Origin: Pedobacter insulae
GTDB lineage: Bacteria > Bacteroidota > Bacteroidia > Sphingobacteriales > Sphingobacteriaceae
Assembly (NCBI RefSeq): GCF_900113525.1
Contig: NZ_FOPP01000003.1
Coordinates: 186,001-250,000 of the forward strand
Length of the DNA: 64,000 bases
Direction of reading: 5' to 3'
In this document: positions 41,430 through 64,000 of the stretch, in pieces
Numbering within the stretch: the stretch's first letter is position 1
Layout of the letters: each line of letters begins with the position of its first letter
Translations under genes and position numbers: made by a program
The notes under the pieces: model-generated
The model's database searches: none
What the model saw: only the letters and a program-made list of their open reading frames with translations
What the model was told of the DNA's origin: nothing

Positions 41430-41460
41430 TTTGATTATTAGTTGAATTGTGTTAGTTTTG
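41430..41460 (+). promoter_or_regulatory. Promoter of the ECF sigma gene (consensus Bacteroidota type)
   Basis: TTTG at 41430-41433 is separated by exactly 19 nt from TAGTTTTG at 41453-41460, a full match to TTTG-N19-TAnnTTTG. The predicted start near 41467 leaves a leader of about 24 nt before the ATG at 41491. It is the best promoter I find in the window, and implies that the sigma gene is read by the main sigma factor rather than only by itself. Confidence 0.85.
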
Positions 41461-41490: not shown

Positions 41491-42057
41491 ATGTTCTCTT
41501 ATGGCACACTCTCTGATGTTGAATTAACTGAGTTATTAAAAAGTGGCGATGCTGCGGCATATACCATCATTTATAACCGTTATTTTGATGTGCTTTATAT
41601 ACACGCTTACCGAAAACTAAATCATAAAGAGGAAGCACAAGATGTTATTCATGAGCTTTTTACGCAATTATGGACAAAAAGAGACATAATTGAAATCAAA
41701 ACTAGCCTCGCATCCTATTTGTATAGCGCAGTACGCAATAAGGTCCTCGATTTAATTTCCCATCAACAGGTTGAATCAAAATACATGAGTTCCTTGCAGA
41801 ATTATATGACGCAGGGTTTTTGCATTACCGATCATGGAATCCGTGAAAAGCAATTAGCTGCCCTTATTGAAAGAGGAATTGCAGACTTACCGCCGAAAAT
41901 GAAAGAAGTTTTTGAACTAAGTCGCAAACATAAGTTAACGCATAAAGAAATTGCCGAAAAGCTCAACCTCTCAGAACAAACAGTGAAAAAGCAGGTTAAC
42001 AACGCGTTGAAAATATTACGCGTAAAGTTAGGCACCATGCTTTTTCTAAGTTTTTAA
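41491..42057 (+). CDS. ECF-type RNA polymerase sigma factor (FecI-like)
   Basis: A 188-residue sigma-70-family protein with region 2 (about 20-85: YNRYFDVLYIHAYRKLNHKE and HELFTQLWTKR) and region 4 (about 125-180: ADLPPKMKEVFELSRKHKLT, then HKEIAEKLNLSEQTVKKQV). It belongs to the Bacteroidota group usually encoded directly before a FecR-like anti-sigma gene. Here no FecR gene follows. The nearest one is at 63184, same strand, on the far side of a 21-kb glycan locus. A repeat cluster begins 24 nt after the stop. Confidence 0.95.
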   Translation: MFSYGTLSDVELTELLKSGDAAAYTIIYNRYFDVLYIHAYRKLNHKEEAQDVIHELFTQLWTKRDIIEIKTSLASYLYSAVRNKVLDLISHQQVESKYMSSLQNYMTQGFCITDHGIREKQLAALIERGIADLPPKMKEVFELSRKHKLTHKEIAEKLNLSEQTVKKQVNNALKILRVKLGTMLFLSF

Positions 42058-42080
42058 GAATTTTGTGAAAGAAGGTAGAA

Positions 42081-42258
42081 AGCGTCATTGCGAGGCACGA
42101 AGCGTCATTGCGAGGCACGAAGCGTCATTGCGAGGTAGGAAGCGTCATTGCGAGGCACGAAGCAATCTGATTAGAGATTGCTTCGCTGCGCTCGCAATGA
42201 CGGGCTACTTCGTTTGGAGGGGCTACTTCGTTTGGAGGGGCTGCGCTCGCAATGAAAC
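42081..42258. repeat. Cluster of palindromic repeats after the sigma gene
   Basis: Four 20-bp direct units beginning AGCGTCATTGCGAGG (42081, 42101, 42121, 42141) are followed by a hairpin AGCAATCT/AGATTGCT (42161-42182) and by the reverse complement CTCGCAATGACG (ending 42202). Two 18-bp units of GGCTACTTCGTTTGGAGG (42203-42238) and a further CTGCGCTCGCAATGA complete the cluster. The third unit carries TAGGA instead of CACGA. Elements with CGTCATTGCGAGG arms are widespread non-coding repeats in several bacterial groups. There is no spacer diversity, so this is not a CRISPR array. Confidence 0.85.
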
Positions 42259-42266
42259 TTCCTACG

Positions 42267-44315
42267 TTATTTTAGGTTCCAGGTAATTTCATCACTGTAA
42301 TTTTTAGAAACCACTTTAAGCACGTTCTTCCCCTTTTTCAGTTGAATGTTCTCAAAAACGTAATGAACAGGAACACTTACTACCGACGGTTTAGCTGCAA
42401 TTTTTTTCCCATTTACATAGAGAATGGGTTCACCAACATTGGAATAAACTGTTACTGGTGTCACTGCGTTTACACGCTCCGTAGTCCGGCGCTCTGTAAG
42501 ATATAACACTGGTTCTTTACTCCAATTCGCTTTGTACCAATAAAAACTATCTTTTTTTATTTTACGGTCAAAAGTAACCAAACCCTTCATATTTCTGGCA
42601 GGCATACTTCCCCTATTCCACATGGGCGTGGCAAAATCGAATGTATTCCAAAGGTAAGATGCTGCTATGATTGGATTTTTTGCTATGATCGGCCATTGAA
42701 TTTCATGGGTTTTAGTCGCAAAATTCTCTGGATATTGTGGTAAAGTGTAATTCCAGCTTTCTTTTAGGGTAGCCTGTTCTTGTTGTTGAAATATATTGGC
42801 ATCAGCACCGTACTCAGAGAGCATGATTAAATTGTTAGGATATTTTTGTTCCAAACCAGTGGCCCACTTTTCGAGGTCTCCAATTTTACCCTCATACCAG
42901 CCGTAATAACGATTCATACCCTGGATATCTGCATTTAGATTGGTTGGTCTATCCATTTCGCCATAACCGCTTACAGCTACGGTATAACGATAGGGATCTA
43001 ACGTTTTTGCTAAATCATTTAACTCACGCGTTAACACTGCAGGGAAATCTGCAGGTGTTTTTCCATATACTTCATTGTGTAAGCCCCACACATAAATTGC
43101 AGGGTGGTTGTAGTTCTGTTTAATCAATTCTTCCAATTGTTGCTTGGCATTGTCTGCCTCTTCCCCTGTATAGGCATTTACAAACGGAATCTCGGCCCAG
43201 ATTACAAAACCCATGGTATCACATTGTGCATACAAATATTCCGCTTGCTGGTAATGGGCAAAACGAATGGTAGTGGCACCCATTTCTTTAATAATCCCTA
43301 GATCTTCTTGATGCTGACTATCACTTAGTGCGCTGCCATAGCCCCACCTATCCTGATGCCTGCATACTCCATTCATGGTATAGGGTTTGTCGTTCAACAT
43401 CATCCCTTTACCCGCTACCAATTCGAACTTGCGCAAGCCTAAAGGTTGTGTAACTTCATCTATCACCACATCAGCTTTAATGAGCCTGGTTACTACCTTA
43501 TATAAATAAGGATTGTTAAAACCGTCCCACAGTATAGGATCAACCACTTTGAGATCTTGTACAAACTGTTGCCTACCTTGCGTGGTGACATGATGTGTAC
43601 TTAGCTTCTCTAAAATCTTTTCTCCTTTTTTATTGTAAATAGTGCTACTAATGATTATGTTTTCAGCTTGTTTACTTACGTTTTCTACTTTCACCGCAAT
43701 GCTCACATCGGCGCTGCTGGCACTTACGTTTTTTTGAGAAATATAAATACCTGGCGATGCGTAGTCGGTGGTAGTAATATTAATCTTATCAGTTACAATT
43801 AAACTAACAGGTCTATAAATACCTCCATATATACCAAAAAGAAAATGATTTACTGGGATCACATCTTTTCGGGCCTTATTGTTTGCCTTAACTAAGATGG
43901 TATTCATTTTACCTAATTGCACTGCATAGGTAATATCAAAACAGAATGCACTATAACCTCCTTTATGGGTGCCTATCAATTTATTGTTTACATATACTTG
44001 AGCTACCTGACCCACCCCCTCAAAACGCAAGAACAAGCGCTTATCTTTATACTCGTTCCCAAAGGTGATTTCCTTTTTATATTGCCCCTCTCCTTCATAA
44101 AAGTCCTTCGATAGCTGCATATCTGTGGCATTCCATGTGTGTGGCAGCGTTACTTTTTCCCATTCTTTCTGAGCGCTTGCATCATTCGTCTTCTTAAAGG
44201 TCCACCCAGTATTAAAAGCGAGGTTTTGTCGCAACGATTGTGCAAGAACCGTGTTTGCACGCCAGTTCAAAATAAATAAAAGGCTAAAAGTGGAATATAT
44301 TATTCGTGTGTTCAT
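42267..44315 (-). CDS. Glycoside hydrolase family 2 beta-galactosidase-like enzyme
   Basis: A 682-residue exported enzyme when started at the ATG at 44315, where a signal peptide begins (MNTRIIYSTFSLLFILNWRA ... LAQ); the longer frame to 44390 would overlap the fucosidase gene. The N-terminal sugar-binding jelly roll (NTGWTFKK ... VTLPHTWNA ... LRFEGVGQVAQVYVNNKLIG) and an immunoglobulin-like middle lead to the TIM barrel. The acid/base is Glu415 (WGLHNEVYG) and the nucleophile Glu501 (IMLSEYGAD). It removes a beta-linked galactosyl, glucuronyl or similar residue. It is the last of four adjacent glycosidase genes. Confidence 0.93.
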   Translation of the reverse strand: MNTRIIYSTFSLLFILNWRANTVLAQSLRQNLAFNTGWTFKKTNDASAQKEWEKVTLPHTWNATDMQLSKDFYEGEGQYKKEITFGNEYKDKRLFLRFEGVGQVAQVYVNNKLIGTHKGGYSAFCFDITYAVQLGKMNTILVKANNKARKDVIPVNHFLFGIYGGIYRPVSLIVTDKINITTTDYASPGIYISQKNVSASSADVSIAVKVENVSKQAENIIISSTIYNKKGEKILEKLSTHHVTTQGRQQFVQDLKVVDPILWDGFNNPYLYKVVTRLIKADVVIDEVTQPLGLRKFELVAGKGMMLNDKPYTMNGVCRHQDRWGYGSALSDSQHQEDLGIIKEMGATTIRFAHYQQAEYLYAQCDTMGFVIWAEIPFVNAYTGEEADNAKQQLEELIKQNYNHPAIYVWGLHNEVYGKTPADFPAVLTRELNDLAKTLDPYRYTVAVSGYGEMDRPTNLNADIQGMNRYYGWYEGKIGDLEKWATGLEQKYPNNLIMLSEYGADANIFQQQEQATLKESWNYTLPQYPENFATKTHEIQWPIIAKNPIIAASYLWNTFDFATPMWNRGSMPARNMKGLVTFDRKIKKDSFYWYKANWSKEPVLYLTERRTTERVNAVTPVTVYSNVGEPILYVNGKKIAAKPSVVSVPVHYVFENIQLKKGKNVLKVVSKNYSDEITWNLK

Positions 44316-44346
44316 TCGTATGTGTTGTTGTGTCTTAAAGTGCGGA

Positions 44347-45825
44347 TTAGGTTTTTGCCTCTCCAAAATTGTTGCTTCTACCTGTTGCATTGATCAATTC
44401 GATGCTTACCACAAATGGCGACGTCGCATTTAAATTAGCTGGCAACTGAATATCATAGTAAATATTTCCATCTCCGCTCATACCCATATCAACAGTGGTT
44501 ATATTAAGCTTTATATTTCCAATTAGCAAAACTGCATTGGCTGGCTTTTGCTTATAACTTCTGGGAATAGCTAGCCGTAACGTTCCATTTACAGGTTTGT
44601 TTATTACCGTAAGGAATAGTTTATTGTCTTTTTTGGTATAATAGCCGTAATCTGGCTTTGGAAGGCCTGCATATTTCGCACCATAAATAGCTGCTCCATT
44701 TACTTTTGTCCATTCGCCCAGTTTAGCTGCCGTGATGCTTTCTTCTGGTCGGATGTTTCCCTTCCCATCCGGACCAAAATTAACGACCAAATTTCCATTC
44801 ATCGATACAGCGTGGAGCAGCATATCAGTTAAATCATGGGCAGTTTTAATATAGGACGATTTCCAGTCTGAATTGTAGCCCCATTGATTGGGTGGTATTG
44901 TCATCACACAATCCCAATCCCTACCCTCCAGCACTTCTATACTTTTTGGTAGTTTCCGTTCCCATCCTTGCTCATAGTCGCCCATCATTTTTCCGTTCGA
45001 GTCAAAGTGGCGTTTACCATTTTCATCTGCACGAAAGCGACTTCCAATAATTAATCCCGGATGAAATGCCCGTAGCTCCTTTTCCAGATCATCGGCAAAC
45101 TTGCTTTGTTTAACCCAGGCAGCATCCCAGGTTCCATCAAACCACAAACCTTTTGTTTTCGGGTAATTGGTTAAAAGCTCAAGCAGCTGGTTTCTGGTAA
45201 ACTGTTTAAAATCTTCATAAGCGAGGCTGTCCTTAGCGGTTTTTGGTACGCCCGATCTATAACCAGGGTGGTTCCAATCTATGATAGAAAAATAGAGATA
45301 AACATCAATTCCCTCGGCATCATACGCATCCACTACTTGTTTTACGATATCCTTTTTATAGGGGGTGTTTGTGATGCTGTAATCCGTGTATTTACTTGGC
45401 CATAAAGAAAATCCATCATGGTGCTTCGTGGTAAAAATCAAATACTTAGCTCCCATATCTTTGGCTTGTTTTGCCCATTTTCTGGCATCGAAAGCTACCG
45501 GGTTAAACTGCTTATACAAATTATCGTAAGTTGCTTGCCAGTTAGCAGGCGCCGAGGCTCCTCCCCATGAACGGATCCATTCTGCAGCTCCATTATAAGA
45601 TTTACCCTCCCAATGTCCGCCCGGAATCGCATATACACCCCAGTGTATAAACTGTCCGAGGCCGTAGCTACGCCAACGTTCCATCATCTCGTCGGTACGG
45701 TTGCCAATTCTATGGCTACCATATTTTAAGGGGATTGTATCTGTTTTGCTTTTTGTTGTCTGTTGGGCATAAGTGCCTCCTGTTGCAAGCACGAGGAGTG
45801 CAATGCCTAAAAATAATCGTTTCAT
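44347..45825 (-). CDS. GH29 alpha-L-fucosidase
   Basis: A 492-residue periplasmic exo-enzyme with a signal peptide (MKRLFLGIALLVLATGGTYAQ). The barrel has the conserved GLGQFIHWGVYAIPGGHWEG, FTTKHHDGFSLWPSKYTDYS (His135, His136, Asp137) and the catalytic nucleophile Asp230 in KGLWFDGTWDA. After the barrel is the usual C-terminal beta-domain. It would cleave terminal alpha-fucose from the glycan imported by this locus. It precedes the GH2 gene by 31 bp on the same strand. Confidence 0.95.
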   Translation of the reverse strand: MKRLFLGIALLVLATGGTYAQQTTKSKTDTIPLKYGSHRIGNRTDEMMERWRSYGLGQFIHWGVYAIPGGHWEGKSYNGAAEWIRSWGGASAPANWQATYDNLYKQFNPVAFDARKWAKQAKDMGAKYLIFTTKHHDGFSLWPSKYTDYSITNTPYKKDIVKQVVDAYDAEGIDVYLYFSIIDWNHPGYRSGVPKTAKDSLAYEDFKQFTRNQLLELLTNYPKTKGLWFDGTWDAAWVKQSKFADDLEKELRAFHPGLIIGSRFRADENGKRHFDSNGKMMGDYEQGWERKLPKSIEVLEGRDWDCVMTIPPNQWGYNSDWKSSYIKTAHDLTDMLLHAVSMNGNLVVNFGPDGKGNIRPEESITAAKLGEWTKVNGAAIYGAKYAGLPKPDYGYYTKKDNKLFLTVINKPVNGTLRLAIPRSYKQKPANAVLLIGNIKLNITTVDMGMSGDGNIYYDIQLPANLNATSPFVVSIELINATGRSNNFGEAKT

Positions 45826-45846
45826 TATGTTTGTGCTTGTATTACG

Positions 45847-47034
45847 CTATAAATACCAATTTTTATACCTTAATAAGGCTTCTAAATAATAATAATCGGC
45901 ATACGTTAGAGGAACATCTACCTCCGAATTGCCGGGCAAAGAGCCAGTGCTGTGCATAAGTAAAAACCCACCATTTTCACCTAAATTTGCGCGATAGGCA
46001 GTAGTTGACAGGGAGGTTAACATTTGCTGGGCGACTGCCACATACTTAGTTCGTTCCTGTTTGCTAGTATATTGGCCCAATTCCAGCAAAGCTGATGCAA
46101 TAATTGCGGCGGCCGAAGCATCTCTATTTGTTTTGGGATCGGGAATGGTTGGGGCATTAAAATCCCAATATGGAACTTTATCTTGGGGCAGATTTGGATG
46201 ATTTAAAATAAATTTTGCGATATTTTTAGCTTGCTTTAAGTAGCGTTTATCTTTAGTAGACCTGAACATGACAAGATAGCCATATAATCCCCATGCCTGT
46301 CCGCGGCTCCATGCCGATTCATCTGCCGCACCCTGTGCGGTTTGTTTTTTTACTACTTCCCCGGTTTGCAGGTTATAATCTATTACATGATAGGAACTAT
46401 AATCATTGCGAAAATGGTTCTTTAATGTTTGGTTAGCGTGTTTAATGGCTATTGCTTTAAATCTCGGATCTCCACCATGATCACTTACCCAGTTCAATAA
46501 TTCCAGGTTCATCATATTATCAATGATCACCGGGCCTCCCCATTTTTTACTGGCGTTCCACGATTGTATCACCTGGGCATTTGGGCGGTAACGGGTACTC
46601 AGCGAAGCCGCAGCCGTATCGACCGTTTTGCGATACGCAGGATCTTTAAGAATACGATAAGCATTCCCAAAGCTACAAAACATCATAAATCCTAAATCGT
46701 GGTTTCCTGTAAAGTGTTTTTCTTTTTCCAGTATATTCAAGCGTCTTTTTGCTTCGCTTAAAATGGCTGTATCGCCGGTATATTCATAAATATACAGCAG
46801 GCTTCCCGGAAAAAAACCGCTGCACCACCATTTAGTATCACTTGTTTCTATTTTACCAGATTGTTGGTAATACGTTTTTGGCATCACCGTTGGTGAAACA
46901 TTTTTAGCTAATACTTTATATTGCTCCCTTGCAAATTGAAACTGATCTTCGATCAATGCTTTCATTTGTTGGTTTTGGGCGATTGCAGTACCGGCCACCA
47001 TACACATTAGCAGGGCTGTTACAAATTTCTTCAT
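45847..47034 (-). CDS. GH88 unsaturated glucuronyl hydrolase
   Basis: A 395-residue (alpha/alpha)6-barrel enzyme with a signal peptide ending AIAQ. The catalytic Asp pair is visible: Asp113 in GNHDLGFM and Asp172 in PVIIDNMMNLELL, with the conserved SAWSRGQAWGLYGYLVMF segment. GH88 enzymes remove the 4,5-unsaturated uronic acid that a polysaccharide lyase leaves at the non-reducing end of a fragment. No lyase gene is found in this window, so the lyase is elsewhere or the enzyme works on another unsaturated uronate. Confidence 0.95.
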   Translation of the reverse strand: MKKFVTALLMCMVAGTAIAQNQQMKALIEDQFQFAREQYKVLAKNVSPTVMPKTYYQQSGKIETSDTKWWCSGFFPGSLLYIYEYTGDTAILSEAKRRLNILEKEKHFTGNHDLGFMMFCSFGNAYRILKDPAYRKTVDTAAASLSTRYRPNAQVIQSWNASKKWGGPVIIDNMMNLELLNWVSDHGGDPRFKAIAIKHANQTLKNHFRNDYSSYHVIDYNLQTGEVVKKQTAQGAADESAWSRGQAWGLYGYLVMFRSTKDKRYLKQAKNIAKFILNHPNLPQDKVPYWDFNAPTIPDPKTNRDASAAAIIASALLELGQYTSKQERTKYVAVAQQMLTSLSTTAYRANLGENGGFLLMHSTGSLPGNSEVDVPLTYADYYYLEALLRYKNWYL

Positions 47035-47035
47035 G

Positions 47036-48643
47036 TTAATCTATATAATTTTGGGGCTGTTTTTTTTCTGTCACAGGCTCGGGATGAAATAAAGGATTCA
47101 TTGGATCATAATAATATAGGCCAGCTTGTTTATATAAGCGCATATGAGTTTTCATTTTCATCATAAACCGATCGCTGCTTTTGTTTTCAACGGTAGTCCA
47201 TGCCGCTTCTGCAAGGGCTGCAATTCGGGGAAATACCAGGTAATCCAATCTTTGTGCGGTAGGCGCAGTTTCTGTCCACAAATTACCCTGAAGCCCTAAG
47301 ATATGCTGACTTTGGGAAGGACTGTCTATAAATTTAAGTGGGTTAAAATCATATACCTGTTGAATAGGATTATATAATTTACCCCATTTACGTCCATATT
47401 GATGTGTGCTATCTTGCACAAAATCAAAATACAAAGGCAAGCGCGGGCATAATACTGTTTGATACTTATTATTCAGCGCTGTTTTTAATTGCTTTACCTG
47501 ATCATGTCGCCACCAAAAGATAACCGTTTGATCGGTAGGTAAACCGGCATCTACCATTTCATCCCAAACCAAAACTTTACTATTCATTTGATAGACCGAA
47601 TCGGCCATTCTCTTCATAAAATAGCGTTCTACAGCCTTATCATCTGCTAAATTTTCACGCTTTCTAAGATCCGCAATTGCCGGATCAACTTTCCATTTTT
47701 CATTTCCATAACTTACTTCATCACCACCTAGATGAATTAAACCTGCCGGGAATAAGACGTTTGTTTCCTTTACGATGTTGGTGAGATATTGATAAGTAGT
47801 TTCTTTACCGGGGTTAAAAGTGAATTCGGGATGTGCTTTTGAACCGCCTCCAGAGTGCTCTGGATATGCCATATTGGCCGCTGTTGCATGGCCAGGCATA
47901 TCGATTTCAGGAATTACCGTGATAAAACGATCCGCAGCATAGCTTACAATTTCTTTAATATCGTTCTGTGTATAATACTGTGCGGGCGCATTGGGATTGA
48001 GATAATTTCCAATACCCCCTATCAATGATAATTTTGGGTATTTCTTTATTTCTAAACGCCAACCTGGCTCATCGGTAAGATGCCAATGAAAACGGTTTAA
48101 TTTGTAAAACGCCATCCAATCTAAGATCTCCTTTACCTTTTCTTTTCCATAAAATGCACGGGATTCATCAAGCATTAAACCTCTCCAGGCATATGCAGGC
48201 TGATCAGTGATCGACAATGCAGGAATGGCTAATGTCTTGTTCCCTGGTTTGGCTGTTCTAACTAACTGTAAAAAAGTAGTGATCCCATAAAAGATCCCTG
48301 CTTCTGTAGGCGCAGAAATGATTACTTTATGGTTGGTAATGCTTAGCTTATATGCTTCTTCATTAATTTTATTTTTACCCTTATTGGTGAGCGACAAATA
48401 AATACCCGGACTTTCGGATTGAGCAACAGCATTTAGGCTCAATTTTCCAAATGTTTGCAGTTCATTCCGTAAGTACCAACTCAACTTTTGCAGCTGTTGT
48501 TGCGGCGCAACGATTACTGTTGTCGGGCTTAAAACAAAACTGCCTTCATTTTGCTCAAAACTATTGGGCATTGGAATAAGTTGCTGCTGTGCAAGGGCCT
48601 CAAAGCTGAGGAATGTGAATAGGAGTTGATAAATTAATTTCAT
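47036..48643 (-). CDS. GH20 beta-N-acetylhexosaminidase
   Basis: A 535-residue enzyme with a signal peptide (MKLIYQLLFTFLSFEALAQ), an N-terminal GH20b domain and the TIM barrel. The catalytic Asp308-Glu309 pair lies in GLIHLGGDEVSYGNEKW, and FHWHLTDEPGWR and VIPEIDMPGHATAA are intact. It releases terminal GlcNAc or GalNAc by substrate-assisted catalysis. It is the first of the four glycosidase genes and separated from the sus genes by a 161-bp gap with a hairpin. The product could feed the GlcNAc-kinase-like proteins encoded at 31714 and 34406. Confidence 0.96.
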   Translation of the reverse strand: MKLIYQLLFTFLSFEALAQQQLIPMPNSFEQNEGSFVLSPTTVIVAPQQQLQKLSWYLRNELQTFGKLSLNAVAQSESPGIYLSLTNKGKNKINEEAYKLSITNHKVIISAPTEAGIFYGITTFLQLVRTAKPGNKTLAIPALSITDQPAYAWRGLMLDESRAFYGKEKVKEILDWMAFYKLNRFHWHLTDEPGWRLEIKKYPKLSLIGGIGNYLNPNAPAQYYTQNDIKEIVSYAADRFITVIPEIDMPGHATAANMAYPEHSGGGSKAHPEFTFNPGKETTYQYLTNIVKETNVLFPAGLIHLGGDEVSYGNEKWKVDPAIADLRKRENLADDKAVERYFMKRMADSVYQMNSKVLVWDEMVDAGLPTDQTVIFWWRHDQVKQLKTALNNKYQTVLCPRLPLYFDFVQDSTHQYGRKWGKLYNPIQQVYDFNPLKFIDSPSQSQHILGLQGNLWTETAPTAQRLDYLVFPRIAALAEAAWTTVENKSSDRFMMKMKTHMRLYKQAGLYYYDPMNPLFHPEPVTEKKQPQNYID

Positions 48644-48733
48644 TTATAATACTTTGTGCTTGAAAATTCATATGGGTCCAACTTCTTAAAAATACATAAA
48701 TAATTTTCTTTTAGAGATAACGTAACCGTTTTC

Positions 48734-48769
48734 CTAATGTTGGGGCGGGCATCCGCCAGCCCCCATTAG
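48734..48769. terminator. Hairpin between the sus genes and the glycosidase genes
   Basis: CTAATG-TT-GGGGC (48734-48746) can pair with GCCCC-CATTAG (48759-48769) with a two-base bulge, in the gap between the SusD gene (48805) and the GH20 gene (48643). It may partly end the sus transcript, giving more SusC/SusD than enzymes, or be an RNA-stability element. Confidence 0.55.
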
Positions 48770-48804
48770 TTCCGCAACTAACCACTTAACTACGTATTCT
48801 TTTT

Positions 48805-50571
48805 TTACCAGCCGGGATTTTGAATTAAGGTGGCCGACTTATCAATTTCGCTTTGCGGTATTGGGGCGAGGTAGGCCCTTGTTTGCCAGTTTACCGCAAG
48901 TGCTACTCTTCTTTCATAGGAGTAAGTACCATTTAGTTCTTTTGTAATATAATTACTGAATATATTGGTTGCTTCAGTAACTTCAGCAGTTTTCCATCTG
49001 CGGGTATCATACCAAAAATGGCCTTCCATCAAAAATTCGGCTACATAATCTTGTTGAATTATTTTTCTTAATCCCTCTTTGGCAATCCCCATCACAATGC
49101 CATACCTGCCATCAGCACCTGGTTCAATACCGGCTCTTTTACGAACCTGGTTCAGTATGGACACTGCATTCTCGGTTTGGCCAACTTCATTTAATGCTTC
49201 AGCATAACCCATCAAAATCTCTGCATACCTCATCACTGGGAGTGCTCGTTGGATTGAACTACTGGTAACTGTTGAATCATTGGCCATTTTACGCGAATAG
49301 TATCCAGTTTTGGTATAATATGCTTGAATGCCATCGGCAGAAATTGCATTGCTTGCTTTGTTGAAGTATATATCTACCGGCACGAGTGTGGTACCGTTTC
49401 CACTTTTCCAAATTGGGGCCTGATTATAGATAATAGAATAATTAAATCTTGGATCCCTGTTTTCAAAGGGCTTATCAGGATTATATCCAGAAGTGGGATC
49501 ATTGATTGCCTTACCATTTTTCATTCCAAAATATTGAACCGCATTATCGGTGGGATTACTATACCCACCACCGCTTCCGGCCCGACTTCTCGGAAAACGT
49601 GCAGACTCTAACGAAGTTCCATTAGAAACAATAAAAGGGATGATGTGTTCAGTGGTTTTTCTGCCTTTGATAGCGAACTTCCAGAAACCATGCCCTGGTC
49701 TGGTAGTATTGTCCTCCACCAAACTATATTCATTTAAATCTATTACTGCTTTCATCGCATCTGCAGCTTTTTGCCATAGCGATTCGTTGTAAGTAGCAGA
49801 ATAGGTTACATAAGGCAAAAGTGCAGCGTTTGTTGAATGAGAATTACCATTGAATAAGGGGCTTGCTGCGATGAGCAAAATTCTGGCTTTTAAAGCCAGT
49901 GCTGCTCCTTTAGTGGCGTGACCATATTCAGAACCATCTTGTTGCAATGCACTCGGAAGGTCCTTTGCCGCATCATCCAGTTCATTGACAATATAATCTA
50001 CACACTCTTTGTAGGTATTTCGCTTAGAGATTAACACATCTTCAACATTTAGTGTTTCATTAGGCATAATTTGCACACCACCGTAGAAACGAACTAGGCC
50101 TACATAAAAGAATGCACGCAAATATCTGGCTTCTGCCATCAATACTGTTTTGCGTTGCGGAGATAAGGGTGTAGCTCCAGCTTTTTGCATAAATAAAGTA
50201 GCTTGCCTAATTTTTTTATAGTAGGTAGTCCAATAATTGTTAAGCGCATAATTTGACGCAGAATAGGTGCCTGCCATTAGCCCTTGTTGCGGAGCACTAT
50301 AATAACTAATCGCTAATGTTGTTTGCTCATCAAAGCAAGCATAGTCGTTGGAGCCAGGCGATGTAATGGTCGAATACCGATAAGGAACAACATCTTGTCC
50401 GGTATAGGCATACATGTCATTTATAAACCCTACAGTCAAGGCACTATCTGCAAACACCCTTTCTTCGGTTAATGTTTCCGTTTTACGATCTAGAAAGCCT
50501 ACTTTTTTGCAAGATGAAAACGCTATTATTGTTGCTACAACAATAAAAAGAATTGAAAATTTGTATTTCAT
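48805..50571 (-). CDS. SusD/RagB-family lipoprotein (locus 2, pair A)
   Basis: A 588-residue lipoprotein with a signal ending IIAFSSC-KKVG. The SusD-like N-terminal region (MAEARYLRAFFYVGLVRFYG) and C-terminal region (FLMEGHFWYDTRRWKTAEV, YLAPIPQSEIDKSATLIQNPGW) are typical. It would bind the target glycan and close the SusC barrel of the preceding gene (stop-to-start gap 11 nt). It is longer than its counterpart in locus 1, which suggests a different glycan. Confidence 0.95.
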   Translation of the reverse strand: MKYKFSILFIVVATIIAFSSCKKVGFLDRKTETLTEERVFADSALTVGFINDMYAYTGQDVVPYRYSTITSPGSNDYACFDEQTTLAISYYSAPQQGLMAGTYSASNYALNNYWTTYYKKIRQATLFMQKAGATPLSPQRKTVLMAEARYLRAFFYVGLVRFYGGVQIMPNETLNVEDVLISKRNTYKECVDYIVNELDDAAKDLPSALQQDGSEYGHATKGAALALKARILLIAASPLFNGNSHSTNAALLPYVTYSATYNESLWQKAADAMKAVIDLNEYSLVEDNTTRPGHGFWKFAIKGRKTTEHIIPFIVSNGTSLESARFPRSRAGSGGGYSNPTDNAVQYFGMKNGKAINDPTSGYNPDKPFENRDPRFNYSIIYNQAPIWKSGNGTTLVPVDIYFNKASNAISADGIQAYYTKTGYYSRKMANDSTVTSSSIQRALPVMRYAEILMGYAEALNEVGQTENAVSILNQVRKRAGIEPGADGRYGIVMGIAKEGLRKIIQQDYVAEFLMEGHFWYDTRRWKTAEVTEATNIFSNYITKELNGTYSYERRVALAVNWQTRAYLAPIPQSEIDKSATLIQNPGW

Positions 50572-50582
50572 GATAATGCTAA

Positions 50583-53696: not shown

Positions 53697-53714
53697 CTTC
53701 TTCTATTTTATGAA

Positions 53715-55451: not shown

Positions 55452-55494
55452 GCTGTATAGTTTTTGTTTTAAATTTGATAATGTGATCATTTGC

Positions 55495-58323
55495 TTAAAG
55501 TTTAAGTGATACACCAGCATTCATTATCCGATAATTAGCAAAACCTGATAGTCCGGTTTCAGGATCTAAATAAGCTAATTTAGAAGCCGTTAGTAAATTA
55601 TATCCATTTACAAAAACCCTAAGTTTACTAATCTTGGCTTTTGACAGGAGTTTTGCAGGAATCGTATACCCTATCTCTGCATTCTTTAAGCGGATATAAT
55701 CTGCCCGCTTAACCCAAAAACTTGAACTTTGCGTGTTATAGGTGTTATTACCCAATGTTAATCTCGGCAAAGTTGCGTTTACTGGATTTTGGGGCGTCCA
55801 TCGATTTTCGGTCGTATAATCCAATACGTTTCCATTGTTATTATTAAAGGCTAAAAACGAACTTGAAGCGTAGTATATTTCACGATTTACGCGGCCTTCA
55901 ATTAAAGCATTGAAATCAAAATTTCTGTAGTTAAAGCCAAAATTCAATCCAAAGAACACTAAGGGCTTCGTTCCTGCAATGGCCTTTTGGTCAAGGAAAT
56001 CTATCACACCATCTTTATTTAGATCATTATATCTGATATCTCCGGCGCTAGGCGTATAACCTGGAATATTTGCTGTTTTGGTAAAATCTTCTCCCGCTTG
56101 ATAAAAGCCAATGGCCTCATATCCAAATGTGGCCGATGGCTGCCCTGCTCTGTACATCCAGCTATAAGGGTAATTGCCTTCAGCACGAGAAATAATTTTA
56201 TTTTTCGCAATCGATAGATTTCCTTTGATGAAATAATTGATGCCGTCATTTTCGCTTTGATAACCAAGGCTTGTTTCATAACCGAAATAGCGGGTTTTAC
56301 CTGCATTTACAGACGGATATCCTAATCCAATAATGCCAGAAGCATAGCCATTTGCCGGGCTAATTAACTCATCTACATACTTATTGTTGTAATAATTCAA
56401 CGCTATATTGAAATGATTTAAGAACTGGGCTTCGATACCAACATCGATCTTAAGCGCTTTTTCCCAGGTAATGTTGGGATTATTCATGCTGTTTTGGAGT
56501 GCTCCGGCTACTGCGGTTGCCGTTGCCCCAAAGTTATAACCTGTTGATGCTACGGAATAGTTCTGCAGATAGGTATAATAATTTGATGGATCAGCATAGG
56601 CCGATTTGCCGATAGTTCCACGTAATTTTAAAAGGTTAATTGCCTTGCTATTGAACCATTCTTCTTTAGACACTATCCAACCTAAACCGATAGCGGGTAA
56701 AAATCCCCAGCGGTTACCTTCGGCGTACCGGTTAAAGCCGCTATAAGCTAAGGCTAATTCTGCAAGGTATTTTTCATTATAGCTATAATTTGCTTTTAAA
56801 CCGGCAGTTTGGTAAACCTGGTTTAATTGGGTATAAGAATCTATCAAATTGGTTAAGTTATAAGTAGCCAATACATTAAATTCATGGTTCCCCATCGCTT
56901 TATCGTAGCCAATTAGGCCATTGAAAAACGTTTGTTTGTACTGTGAACTGATGGATTGAATTCCTGCTCCTGCTTCGAGAACTCCATCGCTTCCCACTTT
57001 TGTATATTCGCCCGTTGAAAGATTTGGGTAATAAATAGCGAACGATTTTGTGCGCGCAATTCGCTGCAAGTAATAGTTATTGATCGATAATAAGGCTTTA
57101 GTCCATAAGCCTTTTGTGATATCGTCCAATTTATATTTCAACGATACATCGGCACTGAGTGAACGCTCGTTATATTGTATGTATCCACTGCTGATGGTAC
57201 TCGCCAAAATATTGGTAAGAAATGACGTGGTACCTCCATAAGATCCGTCTGCATTTTTGGCAGGATATTCTAAAGGTGAAGTTCCATAAATCCTACTCAT
57301 GATAGTAGAACCTGTAACACCCGGCTCATTGTTATTTTCAACTGAACCAAAAATATTTAAGCCAAGTTGGATATCCTCGTTAAAATCAATTTGCGCATTG
57401 GTACGGAGGTTATATCTTTTATAATAGTTATCGGTATTGTATGGATTATCCTTATTAGTTAAGAAATTTCCATCTTGTGCAAAATGTTCTACAGAAGTAT
57501 AAAATCTATAATTTTTACCATTTCCGGCTGCATTGATTGCGTAGCGCTGTTGCGTATTACTTTTTTTGTAAACCGTATTATACCAATCATTATTTGGGTT
57601 TGTATACGGATCATTTGTTCCATTTTGTAATGCGGCGATCCGTTCTTCCGAATAAAGTGGGGTTGCCCCGGGAAATGTATTTTGCTGTGCTTCATTATAA
57701 AGCCTAGCATAATCGGCTCCCGTAATAAAGTTTGGTCTTTTGAATTGTTCATTTGCACCAAATTGTGCAGAAAATCCTAGTTCAAAGGGTTTCTCAATCG
57801 ACCTATCTTTTGTAGTGATATAAATAACCCCATTTCCTGAACGCAAGCCGAACATAGCGTTTGACAGCGCATCATTCATTACAGTAATGGACTTAATGTC
57901 GTCTACGTTAAAACTGGTAAAGGATCGCTGCACACCATCAATAATCAGTAAAGGTGTTTGCCCCCTTAATGTTAAGGATGAGGCGTCGAACATTGGCCCG
58001 GTTCTTCCCGAAGATTTCGAACTGTATAAACCGGGCAATCGCCCAGCAATTACATTCGTAATATCAGAAACGGGAGTAGTCATTACATCCTCGTTATAAA
58101 TTGTTGTTGAACCCTCAACGTTTTTTCTTTTTTGTGTAGTGGAAAACCATTGATTGATATGTCTATCTTGTAATTTTATCTTTTTTAGCACAGAATCAGG
58201 CACCATTAGGTTCTCATCATCCGACTTTTGTTGCTGCGCTAACACCTGTCCCACTGCCGCGAGACAAAGCAGCCAAAGAATTAGCTGACTTTTTAGCTGG
58301 AATAAAGTAGATTTTTTATCCAT
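55495..58323 (-). CDS. SusC-family transporter lacking the N-terminal beta-sandwich (locus 2, pair B)
   Basis: A 942-residue transporter from the ATG at 58323 (MDKKSTLFQLKSQLILWLL, signal peptide ending VLAQ). After the signal peptide only about 45 residues precede the plug (ITNVIAGRLPGLYSSKSSGR, MFGLRSGNGVIYITTK), so the usual 80-residue CarboxypepD_reg-like domain is absent. The plug, barrel and C-terminus (NAGVSLKL) look intact. The related pair A transporter keeps that domain. It is the second gene of the operon after the CHRD-like lipoprotein gene. Confidence 0.93.
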   Translation of the reverse strand: MDKKSTLFQLKSQLILWLLCLAAVGQVLAQQQKSDDENLMVPDSVLKKIKLQDRHINQWFSTTQKRKNVEGSTTIYNEDVMTTPVSDITNVIAGRLPGLYSSKSSGRTGPMFDASSLTLRGQTPLLIIDGVQRSFTSFNVDDIKSITVMNDALSNAMFGLRSGNGVIYITTKDRSIEKPFELGFSAQFGANEQFKRPNFITGADYARLYNEAQQNTFPGATPLYSEERIAALQNGTNDPYTNPNNDWYNTVYKKSNTQQRYAINAAGNGKNYRFYTSVEHFAQDGNFLTNKDNPYNTDNYYKRYNLRTNAQIDFNEDIQLGLNIFGSVENNNEPGVTGSTIMSRIYGTSPLEYPAKNADGSYGGTTSFLTNILASTISSGYIQYNERSLSADVSLKYKLDDITKGLWTKALLSINNYYLQRIARTKSFAIYYPNLSTGEYTKVGSDGVLEAGAGIQSISSQYKQTFFNGLIGYDKAMGNHEFNVLATYNLTNLIDSYTQLNQVYQTAGLKANYSYNEKYLAELALAYSGFNRYAEGNRWGFLPAIGLGWIVSKEEWFNSKAINLLKLRGTIGKSAYADPSNYYTYLQNYSVASTGYNFGATATAVAGALQNSMNNPNITWEKALKIDVGIEAQFLNHFNIALNYYNNKYVDELISPANGYASGIIGLGYPSVNAGKTRYFGYETSLGYQSENDGINYFIKGNLSIAKNKIISRAEGNYPYSWMYRAGQPSATFGYEAIGFYQAGEDFTKTANIPGYTPSAGDIRYNDLNKDGVIDFLDQKAIAGTKPLVFFGLNFGFNYRNFDFNALIEGRVNREIYYASSSFLAFNNNNGNVLDYTTENRWTPQNPVNATLPRLTLGNNTYNTQSSSFWVKRADYIRLKNAEIGYTIPAKLLSKAKISKLRVFVNGYNLLTASKLAYLDPETGLSGFANYRIMNAGVSLKL

Positions 58324-58347
58324 TTTATAAAGTTTTTTTAATACCAA

Positions 58348-58833
58348 TTAATTTAGTTGATCTCGAACTAGCCCCGACTGCTGTTGTGTTGAGGAAACCT
58401 GGCAGTAAATTTTTGCCGTCTGTATTTTCAGAAAATTAGGCTCATCCAATAGTACTTTGCCTTTTGTTTCACGTTGCGCATTAAACGATGGCGCGTTTAA
58501 GTCGAGGAACAACTCGCCAGTTTGGCCACTTTCGCCGAAATAGAGCTTCACGGTGGTAGGACTATCGCCATTTTCTAAGGGCCTGTCAAAATAGATATCA
58601 TAGTGTAGCTCCTTATTGCTCATTAAATACACCATTGCTACGGCATGATCATCTTTATTGGCTAGTGCGGGAATAACATTAGTTGACGAAAGATTTAATT
58701 TCCATTGTTTCTTAATAAAAATATCGGATCTGTAAACGTCGTCCTTTTTACAGGATGGCAAAAACAACAAGGACATTGCCAAAAACAAGCAAGCACCTAA
58801 TGGTACCTTCAATTGTAGTAGAATTTTTTTCAT
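58348..58833 (-). CDS. Lipoprotein with a CHRD-like domain
   Basis: A 161-residue lipoprotein with a signal ending LFLPSC-KKDD. The remainder is a beta-rich domain with the CHRD-like layout: a first strand WKLNLSSTNVIPAL, HAVAMVYLMSNKELHYDIYF, VKLYFGESGQTGELFLDL and a final IYCQVSSTQQQSGLVRDQLN, the last like the YVNVHT...GEIRGQL end of CHRD proteins. The His usually present in that last motif is missing. The function of CHRD domains in bacteria is poorly defined. As first gene of the PUL transcript it may be a surface accessory protein. Confidence 0.65.
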   Translation of the reverse strand: MKKILLQLKVPLGACLFLAMSLLFLPSCKKDDVYRSDIFIKKQWKLNLSSTNVIPALANKDDHAVAMVYLMSNKELHYDIYFDRPLENGDSPTTVKLYFGESGQTGELFLDLNAPSFNAQRETKGKVLLDEPNFLKIQTAKIYCQVSSTQQQSGLVRDQLN

Positions 58834-58873
58834 GTTTGATTTGGTTAGGTTAATTGATAGGTTTTCAATTACT

Positions 58874-58881
58874 CAAAAGTA
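58874..58881 (-). promoter_or_regulatory. -7 box candidate of the large PUL operon
   Basis: Reading the minus strand, TACTTTTG at 58881-58874 is a full match to TAnnTTTG, about 40 nt ahead of the lipoprotein ATG at 58833. A matching -33 box at 19-21 nt is not clear, as expected for a promoter that needs an activator such as the divergent hybrid regulator. Confidence 0.6.
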
Positions 58882-59016
58882 TAAGGGCGTAGATTCAATA
58901 AGGTTGAAAATTGTAAAAGAAAGGGTAGAAAAATCGCAACAATGCGCCAGTTTCGATAAGTTCGGCTTATATTTAATCCACAAACTACAAGTACCTCCTC
59001 CATATTAATTGTATAA

Positions 59017-62000
59017 ATGAAATATTGGCTGCTTTTAATATCTGTATTATTTCTTAACAGGATTTACGCACAAAAACCCATTGTCTTCAATCATTTGTCG
59101 ATGGAAAATGGCCTATCCCAAAATTCTGTAATGGCCATCACACAGGACAAAAATCAGTTCTTATGGTTTGGTACCCGCGGTGGCTTAAACAGGTACGACG
59201 GGTATAGATTTAAAGTGTACACTAATAACGAAAACCCTTATAGTATCTCTGATAACTCAATAGTTAGTCTCCTAACCACTTCAAGCGGATTGATTATGGT
59301 GGGCACAGAAAATGGATTAAACTTTTACGATGAAGAAACTGATCGATTTACACGCGCTTTTAAAGACACCTCTTCAAGCAGTTTAAGTAGTAATTTAGTG
59401 GAGTGCCTATATGAAGACCCGAAAAAAAATTTATGGGTGGGAACACTAGATGGTCTTAATTTATTGGTTGATCAAAAAAAGAAGAAGTTTAAGAGATTTT
59501 TTTTTGACAAACCTGGAGGCCCTTCCCGCCGTAACATGATCTTAGCCATCTTTAAAGATGCTCAACAAAACATTTGGCTTGGGACTGAAGGTGGGCTCAT
59601 TAGAATGTATGCAATTAAAGGAACCTACCACTATGAGTTATTCAAACACAATCCTCAAGACCTACGAAGCATTAGCTCAAATTATGTGAGAAGCATTACT
59701 TGTGATAAGAACAAAAATTTATGGGTGGGCACAGATAAAGGACTTAATTTATTTAATTATAAAAATAAATCATTTAGTCGTTTTCAGAAAGACCTATCAA
59801 AGAGCAATTCGCTCATTAACAACGACATTAGAAAGATAATTTTCGATAAGGCAGGTAAATTATGGATTGCAACGCAGGAAGGGATAAGCATATTTGATCC
59901 GCTACATCAAACATTCTCCAACCATAGGCACCATCCTGATTTACCTGGTTCATTGAGCCAGAATTCTACCCATAGCATTTTTCAAGACATAAGTGGCTCC
60001 ATGTATATTGGCACTTATTATAAGGGCGTAAATGTGGTCTATCCTTATTCAACAAATTTCACCGTTTATAAGAATAGTAAGTCCCAAGCTAGCATCAGCA
60101 GCAATATTATCAGCGCAATGGTAGAAGACCAGTACCATAACTTATGGATTGGAACTGAAGGAGGGGGATTAAATTACCTTAACAGAAGAGAAAATACCTT
60201 CAGTCACTATTTTGCCAATCCAAATAATCCATACGCATTAACTACCAACCTTATCAAAACACTTTATCTTGATAAGGCTGGCAAATTAATGATAGGCACA
60301 CACAGGGGTGGTTTATTTGTTTTCGATGCAGTTAAACAGCGGTTTAAGAAAATAATTAATGTAAAAGAAGAATATCCTTATGTTGGTACTGCAGAGATTG
60401 TTGCAATTACGGAAGATAGTGAAGGTACCGTTTGGGTTGGCTCCAAAAATGGACTTTCTACCATCTTAGAATCGAACGGTGAATATCTTAACACTACCGT
60501 TAAAAGCCCTGTAGAAAAAAAACTTTCCAACAAATTCATTCAAGTTTTATTTGAGGATAAGTCAAAAAATTTATGGATAGGTACAATGGGTGGGCTTTTC
60601 ACCTACTTCCCCCTCACTGGCAATGTTAGGGCATATTATAAAGCTGCCGATTCGAATAGTTTACAATCTAACCGCATTAATTGTATTATCCAAACTAAGA
60701 ACGGCCATATTTGTGTAGGCACCTATCTAGGCGGTCTCAGTATTTTCAATACCAAAACTGGCAAGTTCACAAACTTCTCTGAAAGAAATGGCCTACCAAA
60801 TAACAATATTTTAGGGATCATCGAAGATCAAAATGAAAACCTATGGTTAAGTACCGATAAGGGCTTATCGAAGATGGAGGTTGCTACCGGGAAATTTTAC
60901 AATTATACCCGTAGTGACGGCATTGCAGGAAATGATTTTAACTTTAGATCATTTTTCAAAGACAGCAAGGGGCAACTATTTTTTGGGGGATATGACGGAG
61001 TAACTTCATTTAAATCAGACCAGATTGAGGTCAATAATCGGGTTGCTCCAATTACCTTTACAGGATTAAAACTCTTTAACGAACCTGTTTTAGTAAATGG
61101 ACCTGATGGATTGCTTAAACAGGATATTAAAACAACAAAGAAGCTCGTATTCGAACACAACAACAATAATTTTAGCATAGAATTTGCGCTATTAAACTAC
61201 GTTAAACCAGAGAAAAATAATTATGCTTATAAGCTTTTAGGCTACAACGAGAACTGGGTTCACACCAATATCCCCAACGCCACCTATGCAAATCTGCAAC
61301 CAGGAAATTACACTTTTATTGTAAAAGGCATCAATAATGATGGTGTAGATGGAGGAAGCCCAGCAACGATTGAAATTAAGATTTTGCCGCCATTTTGGGC
61401 AACTTGGTGGGCCTATTTGCTATACATCTTACTTTTTGGCTGGATCCTATTTTTAATTATACGTTACATTTTTGTACAAGAGCGATTAAAACGAACGGAA
61501 GATCTGCAAAGAATGAAGTTAAATTTTTTTACTTATATAGCTCATGAAATAAGGACGCCGTTGACACTTATTATCGGCCCACTTGAAAGCTTGCTCAATA
61601 CTTCTCATAAAAACCCAGAGTTGCATAAACAGTTGGTTCCTATTAAGCATAATGCAGACCGTTTAATTCGGTTGATCACGGAATTAATGGATTTTAGAAA
61701 GGCCGAAACTCATCATCTTAAACTCCATGTAAGCGAAGACAATATCATTGATTTTATAAATGAAATTTTTCTCTCCTTTAAACATATTGCTCAAGATAAG
61801 CATATAACCTATACGTTTATTCACGAATTAGCGGAGATTAAGCTCTACTATGATAAGCTACAGCTTGAGAAGGTGCTGTATAACCTACTTTCAAATGCTT
61901 TTAAATTTACCCAGCACAATGGGCATATAACCGTTACAGCCACCGTGCAGGAGGAAGATGTTGTTATTAGCATACAAGATACAGGTCGAGGCATTCCCAT

Positions 62001-63081
62001 TGAAAGTCAGCCAAAGTTATTCAGCGACTATTTTCAGGTAGATGACCAGGATACCAGTCAAATTGGTTCTGGAATCGGATTGGCGCTTTCCAAAATTATC
62101 GTCGAAGCCCATCATGGAGAAATAAATTTTGTAAGTAATCCTTCAGAAGGTAATGAACCGGGGTACACTAATTTTAGTATTCGCTTAAAAAGGGGGAAAT
62201 CCCATTATAAACAGGAAGAGTTTGAAAATGTTAAGGAGCATAGACAATTAGCTCACACCTATGCCTATGCACATGATGAGGTTAAACTGGACGAATTAGT
62301 AAAAGAAGCCAAGCAGCCTGCCAAAGAAACGATACTGCTTGTTGAAGATAATGCAGAAATTATGCAGTTTATTTCGAAGCTTATCTCTAAACATTATCAA
62401 GTGCTGGAAAGTGCCGATGGGCTTGAAGGATGGGAAACAGCAATTAAAGTACTGCCAGATTTAATTATTTGTGATGTAATGATGCCCAAAATAGATGGTT
62501 TGGAACTTTGCCGCAGGCTTAAAGCCGATGAGCGAACCAGTCACATTCCGATTATTATTCTAACGGCGCGTTCTTCCCATATCCACCATATTGATGGTCT
62601 GGAAACTGGTGCAGATATATATGTTACCAAACCCTTTAGTCCAGACCTGTTGTTGCTCAGTGTTCGCAACTTATTAATGTCGCGGATGGCGGTTAGGCAG
62701 CGCTATTTAAAATACTCGAATTTAGAGCCTAAAGATGTTACTTTAAATTCTGTAGACGAAGTGTTTATGTCTAAGCTACTGGGTTTTATCAATGAGCATA
62801 TTGCTGATGAAAATTTTGGGGTAGATGCCTTGGCATCAAAGATTGGGATGAGCAGACCTGTTTTGTATAAAAAAGTAAGGATGTTAACAGACTTATCGGT
62901 AAACGATTTTGTGAAGTCTATTCGTTTAAAAAAAGCCAAGCAACTATTTATGCAAAATAGATATACTATTTATGAGGTTTCTTATCAGGTAGGCTTTAAC
63001 GATCCGAAGTATTTTAGTAGGGAGTTTAAAAAACAATTTGGAGAAAGTCCTCGTAGCGTAATGGATCGTTCTGCAGAATAA
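59017..63081 (+). CDS. Hybrid two-component system regulator (HTCS) of the PUL
   Basis: A 1354-residue protein that joins sensor, kinase, receiver and DNA-binding parts. Signal peptide to about residue 19 (RIYAQ); two beta-propellers of repeated blades such as KNLWVGT and NLWIGT (about 20-700); a Y_Y_Y domain (about 710-790); one membrane helix (about 796-818); HisKA with His843 in YIAHEIRTPLT; HATPase (NLLSNAFKFT, DTGRGIP, GSGIGLAL); receiver with phospho-acceptor Asp1153 in IICDVMMP; and an AraC-type helix-turn-helix (about 1250-1350, FGVDALASKIGMSRPVLYKK). HTCS proteins bind glycan fragments in the periplasm and activate the neighbouring sus genes. The divergent orientation next to the PUL fits this exactly. 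Confidence 0.97.
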   Translation: MKYWLLLISVLFLNRIYAQKPIVFNHLSMENGLSQNSVMAITQDKNQFLWFGTRGGLNRYDGYRFKVYTNNENPYSISDNSIVSLLTTSSGLIMVGTENGLNFYDEETDRFTRAFKDTSSSSLSSNLVECLYEDPKKNLWVGTLDGLNLLVDQKKKKFKRFFFDKPGGPSRRNMILAIFKDAQQNIWLGTEGGLIRMYAIKGTYHYELFKHNPQDLRSISSNYVRSITCDKNKNLWVGTDKGLNLFNYKNKSFSRFQKDLSKSNSLINNDIRKIIFDKAGKLWIATQEGISIFDPLHQTFSNHRHHPDLPGSLSQNSTHSIFQDISGSMYIGTYYKGVNVVYPYSTNFTVYKNSKSQASISSNIISAMVEDQYHNLWIGTEGGGLNYLNRRENTFSHYFANPNNPYALTTNLIKTLYLDKAGKLMIGTHRGGLFVFDAVKQRFKKIINVKEEYPYVGTAEIVAITEDSEGTVWVGSKNGLSTILESNGEYLNTTVKSPVEKKLSNKFIQVLFEDKSKNLWIGTMGGLFTYFPLTGNVRAYYKAADSNSLQSNRINCIIQTKNGHICVGTYLGGLSIFNTKTGKFTNFSERNGLPNNNILGIIEDQNENLWLSTDKGLSKMEVATGKFYNYTRSDGIAGNDFNFRSFFKDSKGQLFFGGYDGVTSFKSDQIEVNNRVAPITFTGLKLFNEPVLVNGPDGLLKQDIKTTKKLVFEHNNNNFSIEFALLNYVKPEKNNYAYKLLGYNENWVHTNIPNATYANLQPGNYTFIVKGINNDGVDGGSPATIEIKILPPFWATWWAYLLYILLFGWILFLIIRYIFVQERLKRTEDLQRMKLNFFTYIAHEIRTPLTLIIGPLESLLNTSHKNPELHKQLVPIKHNADRLIRLITELMDFRKAETHHLKLHVSEDNIIDFINEIFLSFKHIAQDKHITYTFIHELAEIKLYYDKLQLEKVLYNLLSNAFKFTQHNGHITVTATVQEEDVVISIQDTGRGIPIESQPKLFSDYFQVDDQDTSQIGSGIGLALSKIIVEAHHGEINFVSNPSEGNEPGYTNFSIRLKRGKSHYKQEEFENVKEHRQLAHTYAYAHDEVKLDELVKEAKQPAKETILLVEDNAEIMQFISKLISKHYQVLESADGLEGWETAIKVLPDLIICDVMMPKIDGLELCRRLKADERTSHIPIIILTARSSHIHHIDGLETGADIYVTKPFSPDLLLLSVRNLLMSRMAVRQRYLKYSNLEPKDVTLNSVDEVFMSKLLGFINEHIADENFGVDALASKIGMSRPVLYKKVRMLTDLSVNDFVKSIRLKKAKQLFMQNRYTIYEVSYQVGFNDPKYFSREFKKQFGESPRSVMDRSAE

Positions 63082-63183
63082 TTAAATCTATTTTAATTTT
63101 TTATTAAATCTTTCTACCCCCTAGCCCACCTTATGCCGTCTATATATTAAAGGGGTTAATCTTCCTTAACAAAAAATATACCT

Positions 63184-64000
63184 ATGGATAACATTGACGC
63201 AAAAAATCTGCTTATAAAATATAGAGAAGGAGCCTGTACTCCAGAAGAAATAACGCTAATAGAAAGCTGGTACTTAAACGACAAAGAAGAAGATATTGCC
63301 ATCACAATAGCGGAACTGGATGAAGCAAAAGATCATATCTGGGCAACTTTACCGGTACACGATAGCCTTAAGGCTAAACAGGTGAGGCTTTGGTTGGGTT
63401 TGCCGCGCAGGTATATCCGTATTGCTGCGGCCGCTATTATCGTTTTGTCAGCGTCGGTTGGATTATATTTTAGCAAGCAAAAAACGAACAAAGAGGATGT
63501 TGTTGCGGCTGTAAACAATAACATTGTACCTGGTGGTAAAAAAGCACTGTTAACCTTAGCTAATGGCCAGTCGATCGTTTTAGGCGATGCACGGAATGGA
63601 AAATTAGCGGATCAAGCAAATAGTAGTGTTTTTAAAACAGCTAATGGTGAACTGGTTTACAATGCCGAAAATCGTCAAGAAGCTAGCGTGGTTTATAATT
63701 TATTAACGATCCCTAGAGGAGGTTACTACATTTTAACACTTGCCGATGGCACCAAGGTTTGGTTAAACGCCGAATCTTCCTTAAAATATCCAACAAGTTT
63801 TATAGGCAGTGAACGTGTAGTTGAATTGGTGGGCGAAGGCTATTTTGAGGTTGCAAAGCGCAAAGATCAACCCTTTAAAGTTGTTACCAGTCAGCAAACC
63901 GTTGAAGTATTGGGAACCCATTTTAATGTGAATGCTTATGCGGATGAGAAAGTGACGGCGACGACGTTATTGGAAGGAAGTGTGAAAGTGTCATTGTCAT
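63184..64000 (+). CDS. FecR-type anti-sigma factor, 3' end outside the window
   Basis: 272 codons of a FecR-like inner-membrane anti-sigma factor, cut by the window end. The cytoplasmic N-terminus (MDNIDAKNLLIKYREGACTP and EITLIESWY) binds sigma; one membrane helix lies near residues 80-97 (YIRIAAAAIIVLSASVGLYF); the periplasmic FecR core follows (IPRGGYYILTLADGTKVWLN, 'FIGSERVVELVGEGYFEVAK', VLGTHFNVNAYAD). In related genomes such genes follow an ECF sigma gene directly. Here the preceding gene is the HTCS regulator, 102 nt away, and the only sigma gene seen is at 41491. Confidence 0.95.
   Translation, partial: MDNIDAKNLLIKYREGACTPEEITLIESWYLNDKEEDIAITIAELDEAKDHIWATLPVHDSLKAKQVRLWLGLPRRYIRIAAAAIIVLSASVGLYFSKQKTNKEDVVAAVNNNIVPGGKKALLTLANGQSIVLGDARNGKLADQANSSVFKTANGELVYNAENRQEASVVYNLLTIPRGGYYILTLADGTKVWLNAESSLKYPTSFIGSERVVELVGEGYFEVAKRKDQPFKVVTSQQTVEVLGTHFNVNAYADEKVTATTLLEGSVKVSLS

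Follow-up and report, generated by a model that had tools for sequence, protein, structure and literature searches.

The locus described here has two kinds of close counterpart. The first is FecI/FecR/FecA signalling (the fec system of Escherichia coli and the sigma/anti-sigma/STN-SusC systems of the Bacteroidota), with which it shares an ECF sigma factor, an anti-sigma protein carrying FecR and FecR_C domains, and an STN-bearing TonB-dependent transporter with SusD. The second is the HTCS-controlled PUL, with which it shares two SusC/SusD pairs, enzymes of the GH2, GH29, GH20 and GH88 types, and a divergent HTCS gene. In PUL24 of B. thetaiotaomicron, a SusC operon is likewise under sigma/anti-sigma control (BT1877/BT1876), and trans-complementation of the anti-sigma factor was achieved with its native promoter (PMC11501099). 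In PUL24, mapping placed the suspected sigma-dependent start within the anti-sigma gene rather than upstream of it (PMC11501099). ECF-controlled promoters of glycan and nutrient operons in the Bacteroidota are hard to predict (PMC3878776).

We analyzed a stretch of 64,000 nucleotides of Pedobacter insulae, called the window below (G000:C11:186001-250000, where G000 is the 4.39-Mb source genome). We consider it probable that an intact FecI/FecR/STN-SusC locus has been split here by a complete PUL with its HTCS, inserted at the sigma stop codon, and that signalling has stayed intact with the sigma factor acting in trans.

Results

Anatomy of the sigma/FecR locus

The ECF sigma gene (FecI-like, 41491-42057, plus strand) is intact and encodes 188 aa. 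Regions 2 and 4 are both present in Pfam searches (Sigma70_r2, r4 and Sigma70_ECF; PF04542, PF08281 and PF07638). The gene to its left encodes a CHASE/PAS histidine kinase (38982-41351, minus strand), which is divergent from the sigma gene both here and in relatives and serves as the left anchor of the locus. The FecR-type anti-sigma gene starts at 63184 on the plus strand, exactly as the original prediction had placed it relative to the sigma end at 42057. Only the first 272 of its 385 codons lie in the window (63184-64000), and the gene runs past 64000. The full-length protein of 385 aa is intact (FecR PF04773, E=1.1e-14; FecR_C PF16344, E=2.6e-19).

The window encodes three SusC-type proteins, all of which lack an STN domain; one of them (55495-58347) has no Pfam match at all. 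It had therefore been predicted that the SusC served by the pair probably lies beyond 64000, and the anatomy agrees: the gene directly after FecR encodes a SusC with the STN signalling domain (L010:10468-13842; PF07660, E=1.6e-11). Downstream of it, on the same strand, lie genes for SusD, DUF4843 and PKD-like lipoproteins, thioredoxin-like proteins and an aspartyl-protease-like protein.

The distance from sigma to FecR is 21,024 bp, so the two genes lack their usual adjacency. That such genes are ordinarily neighbors in the same direction holds well in the source genome, where sequence searches of the contigs gave 21 FecR genes, 19 of them with a same-strand sigma gene directly upstream by coordinates. 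The present pair is the only one of the 21 that is split. Another departure in order was seen in a FecR gene whose neighboring sigma gene is divergent, approximately 120 bp away (C12:315870-318913; L005 1126-3012). No other sigma gene adjoins the FecR gene studied here, and no other FecR gene adjoins the sigma gene.

The named relatives of the sigma gene are mostly from Pedobacter, and its branch length in the tree is ordinary. Sigma genes that are 60-63% identical to it also occur in Adhaeribacter rhizoryzae and A. aerolatus (L162, L163), which belong to another order. Each is followed by a FecR gene, with a similar element in the spacer. This identity exceeds that of many paralogs in the same genus, and horizontal transfer of the signalling locus is possible on these sequence comparisons.

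The PUL between the two genes

The intervening DNA holds a complete PUL with two SusC/SusD pairs on the minus strand (42267-58833) and a plus-strand HTCS gene. The gene content thus confirms that a PUL with its own regulator stands between sigma and FecR. The four enzyme genes, all on the minus strand and compared here with the PUL of the relative G036, encode a GH2 family glycosidase (42267-44390, 84% identity), a GH29 alpha-L-fucosidase (44347-45825, 82%), a GH88/105-like unsaturated glycuronyl hydrolase family protein (45847-47034, about 74-75%) and a GH20 beta-hexosaminidase (47036-48643, about 77-78%). The second SusC/SusD pair follows on the same strand (SusD-like, 48805-50571; SusC-like TonB-dependent transporter without STN, 50583-53696), and then the first (SusD-like, 53715-55520; SusC-like, 55495-58347) and a CHRD-domain lipoprotein (58348-58833).

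The SusC-like protein at 55495-58347 is unusually diverged. It has no Pfam match at E 0.01 and is nevertheless clearly related to the SusC proteins of G148 (58%) and G036; its assignment is based on these two similarities. The HTCS regulator (59017-63081, plus strand, 1354 aa) has the sensor propeller, HisKA, receiver and AraC HTH domains in Pfam, and shares 73% identity with its counterpart in the G036 and G096 PULs. The SusC/SusD pairs, the linked glycoside hydrolases (GH2/GH29/GH88/GH20) and the linked HTCS are those of an HTCS-controlled PUL.

Empty sites in relatives

Orthologs of the sigma gene, with about 65-75% identity, were found in 25 genomes after a search of 146 genomes of the same genus and inspection of the loci. 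FecR lies directly downstream of sigma in every one of the 25 (gap 68-185 bp). The best same-genus matches of the window's sigma and FecR proteins coincide as such adjacent pairs. The split order was seen in one genome only, that of the source, and is not conserved.

Both flanks are kept in several relatives, including the two nearest, G036 and G096. On the left, these two have the same GAPDH gene (97%) and neighbors as the window, and then the divergent kinase (64-65%). On the right, they have FecR (54%), the STN-SusC (70%), SusD (73%) and later genes including a TlpA-like one. A single contig of 27.7 kb in G044 is collinear with the source from 31.7 kb to 84.5 kb (window numbering), apart from some minor differences and the absence of the PUL. 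The loci of G036, G096 and G044 are empty sites in the strict sense, with sigma directly followed by FecR and the flanks in the same order.

Gene order alone is uninformative on whether it was the sigma gene that moved, or whether the split is ancestral and the relatives have re-joined the two genes. However, the window and 11 relatives whose sigma and FecR are adjacent all have the divergent kinase to the left of sigma, the FecR side is collinear, and the split occurs in one genome. Synteny in the relatives examined already refutes this explanation, whose probability we regard as close to nil.

Break point and junctions

The segment missing between sigma and FecR in the 25 ortholog genomes is 21,024 bp long (42058-63081, with limits accurate to within a few bases). 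Its left edge lies directly after the present stop codon of sigma. On the right, the ancestral sigma-FecR spacer is kept upstream of FecR (63083-63183, plus strand); its alignment with those of the relatives begins at the ancestral sigma stop codon. Nothing recognizable has been replaced by the insert. No transposase or integrase gene was found among the main open reading frames of 42058-63081, and no direct repeat of at least 9 bp was found between the two junctions as a target duplication. A sole inverted match of 9 bases at the junctions was treated as chance.

The original prediction had pointed to a repeat cluster at the left junction. The cluster is real (42081-42258, no strand assigned), lying where the sigma and GH2 genes converge, and is of a dispersed type: the 14-mer GCGTCATTGCGAGG occurs 36 times across the source genome, often in clusters. 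Folding of 42058-42266 gave a very stable hairpin (−98.4 kcal/mol, z −7.3), and the cluster matched no family in Rfam. It is an ordinary dispersed hairpin repeat, whose role in the insertion is at most hypothetical. The hairpin may act as a two-way terminator for the sigma and GH2 transcripts.

A dispersed repeat at a junction, in an assembly of 21 contigs, could also point to an assembly artefact. The repeat cluster is shorter than 200 bp, however, and the right junction, where the HTCS gene abuts the ancestral spacer, is unique sequence. Moreover, both flanks are exactly the ancestral neighbors, which a random misjoin would not recover. We regard an artefact as very improbable.

The PUL at another site

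The same PUL is present in G036 and G096 at an unrelated place, roughly 1 Mb away from sigma and FecR in G036 and on another contig in G096. The HTCS there is orthologous (73%) and the enzymes are in the same order, with one extra gene between GH29 and GH2. In the HTCS tree, the window groups with G036 and G096 at 100/100 support. The simplest reading of these comparisons is that the same ancestral PUL now occupies a different site in the source lineage. Since the PUL lies elsewhere in the two nearest relatives, it is not new to the lineage, and relocation is possible. Together with the empty sites, this means that the PUL came to the sigma stop codon by insertion or relocation. The insertion between the two genes that was originally proposed is supported by the empty sites with both flanks and by the break point, and relocation is added to it as a possibility.

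We also looked for a donor site. The region left of the PUL in G036 and G096 has a counterpart in the source genome (alcohol dehydrogenase, C14:226860), which is heavily rearranged and gave no clean empty site. A conserved gene of 440 aa near the PUL in both relatives has no match in the source genome.

The absence of any trace of the PUL at this counterpart would also fit horizontal acquisition, in which the PUL came from another Pedobacter-like species, independently of the lineage of the G036 and G096 copy. In the same direction point the four SusC/SusD proteins, which share 36-45% identity with their distant G036 counterparts and 50-66% with the closer ones of G148, and the G+C content of the enzyme part, which is slightly higher than outside (0.39-0.41 versus 0.36-0.39). 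On the other hand, the enzymes and the HTCS are 73-84% identical to those of G036 and G096, as are ordinary chromosomal neighbors (roughly 65-97%), and the HTCS tree joins the same genomes at full support. SusC/SusD cassettes are exchanged inside conserved PULs elsewhere too (G148 versus G040), so these proteins do not date the whole PUL. We consider acquisition unlikely, though it is the most serious of the alternatives, and relocation within the genome the probable origin.

The cassettes deserve a description of their own. Two alternative SusC/SusD cassettes, only 36-45% alike, occur under one conserved HTCS. The window (48805-58347) and G148 (C42:311374-320958, L135) have one type, with 50-66% identity. 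G036 and G096 (G036:C1:1299157-1308547, L128, L129) and G040 (C1:2946309, L137) have the other, with 80% identity between the SusC proteins of G036 and G040. The HTCS proteins of G148 and G040 are 89% identical despite their differing cassettes. From these alignments, the transport cassette appears to have been swapped within an otherwise conserved PUL.

Promoter-like sequences spared by the insert

The retained spacer contains the element TACCCC-N16-CGTCT (63115-63141, plus strand), 42 bp before FecR, which is a candidate ECF sigma promoter for the FecR/SusC/SusD operon. The pattern TAC[CT][CA]C-N16/17-CGTCT was found in all 25 ortholog spacers and in about 0.02% of shuffled spacers (approximately 2 in 10,000), although the spacers are less independent than this count makes them appear, as the sequences are related. 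The source genome contains just one match to a strict pattern closely related to this one. Of 64 other sigma-FecR spacers, taken from the same genus and related ones, 36 have a relaxed form, against 1.9% of shuffles. The element is not universal among sigma-FecR spacers: it is lacking in five of the six others examined in the source genome, although the sigma factors of those are different and more distant ones. CGTC is frequent as a −10 sequence in ECF promoters, which makes the element the likely target of this sigma factor. The element is most likely the promoter that this sigma recognizes.

The sigma gene has a promoter-like sequence of its own, TTTG-N19-TAnnTTTG (41430-41460, plus strand), 30 bp upstream of its start. 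It matches the housekeeping consensus of Bacteroidetes as quoted in PMC7366714. The strict motif is found upstream of sigma in only 11 of the 25 orthologs, versus 1.1% of shuffles. The insert missed both the sequence upstream of sigma and that upstream of FecR, which indicates that the split pair probably still works.

The HTCS and FecR genes are on the same strand and only 102 bp apart. The pair could hence have been uncoupled, leaving sigma as an orphan and the FecR-SusC-SusD operon to be read through from the HTCS gene and to follow the HTCS. Against this stand the intact element in the spacer and the intact sigma gene with its ordinary branch length, and we judge uncoupling to be improbable.

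Discussion

We propose that the PUL was inserted exactly at the sigma stop codon, probably by relocation within the genome and less likely through acquisition. The insertion would fall between two transcription units. Sigma would be transcribed from its own housekeeping-type promoter and the FecR-SusC-SusD operon from the TACCCC-N16/17-CGTCT element in the retained spacer. Ligand binding by the STN-SusC would cause FecR to release or activate sigma, which would then diffuse to the element at FecR, 21 kb away, and act there in trans. The PUL in between would stay under the control of its HTCS. The in-trans complementation in B. thetaiotaomicron (PMC11501099) indicates that adjacency of sigma and anti-sigma genes is not required in principle, and we infer from the sequences that the split pair probably still signals.

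A broader proposal is that the relaxed and strict elements represent a general class of ECF promoters for the FecR/STN-SusC operons of Sphingobacteria. The sigma-FecR gap would then separate independent transcription units and form a boundary at which whole PULs can be inserted without breaking signalling. We put this forward tentatively, at slightly less than an even chance. No earlier report of the element or of such a split was found in the literature searched.

The locus is a natural experiment: after the insertion of 21 kb, only the spacer with the conserved element remained with the FecR operon. The insertion thus singles out a short, testable candidate for an ECF promoter, and suggests that linkage of sigma and anti-sigma genes can be dispensable. 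A complete PUL at a site that differs from that of its orthologs in the nearest species is evidence that a PUL and its regulator move together as one compact unit.

The split joins two loci of known kinds in a rare rearrangement. Unlike in loci of the FecI/FecR/FecA type, a foreign operon here separates sigma and anti-sigma by 21 kb. Unlike other HTCS-controlled PULs, this one lies inside another regulatory locus, and its SusC/SusD cassette is not the one found in the nearest orthologous PUL. In contrast to the present pair, BT1877/BT1876 of PUL24 is not reported as split (PMC11501099).
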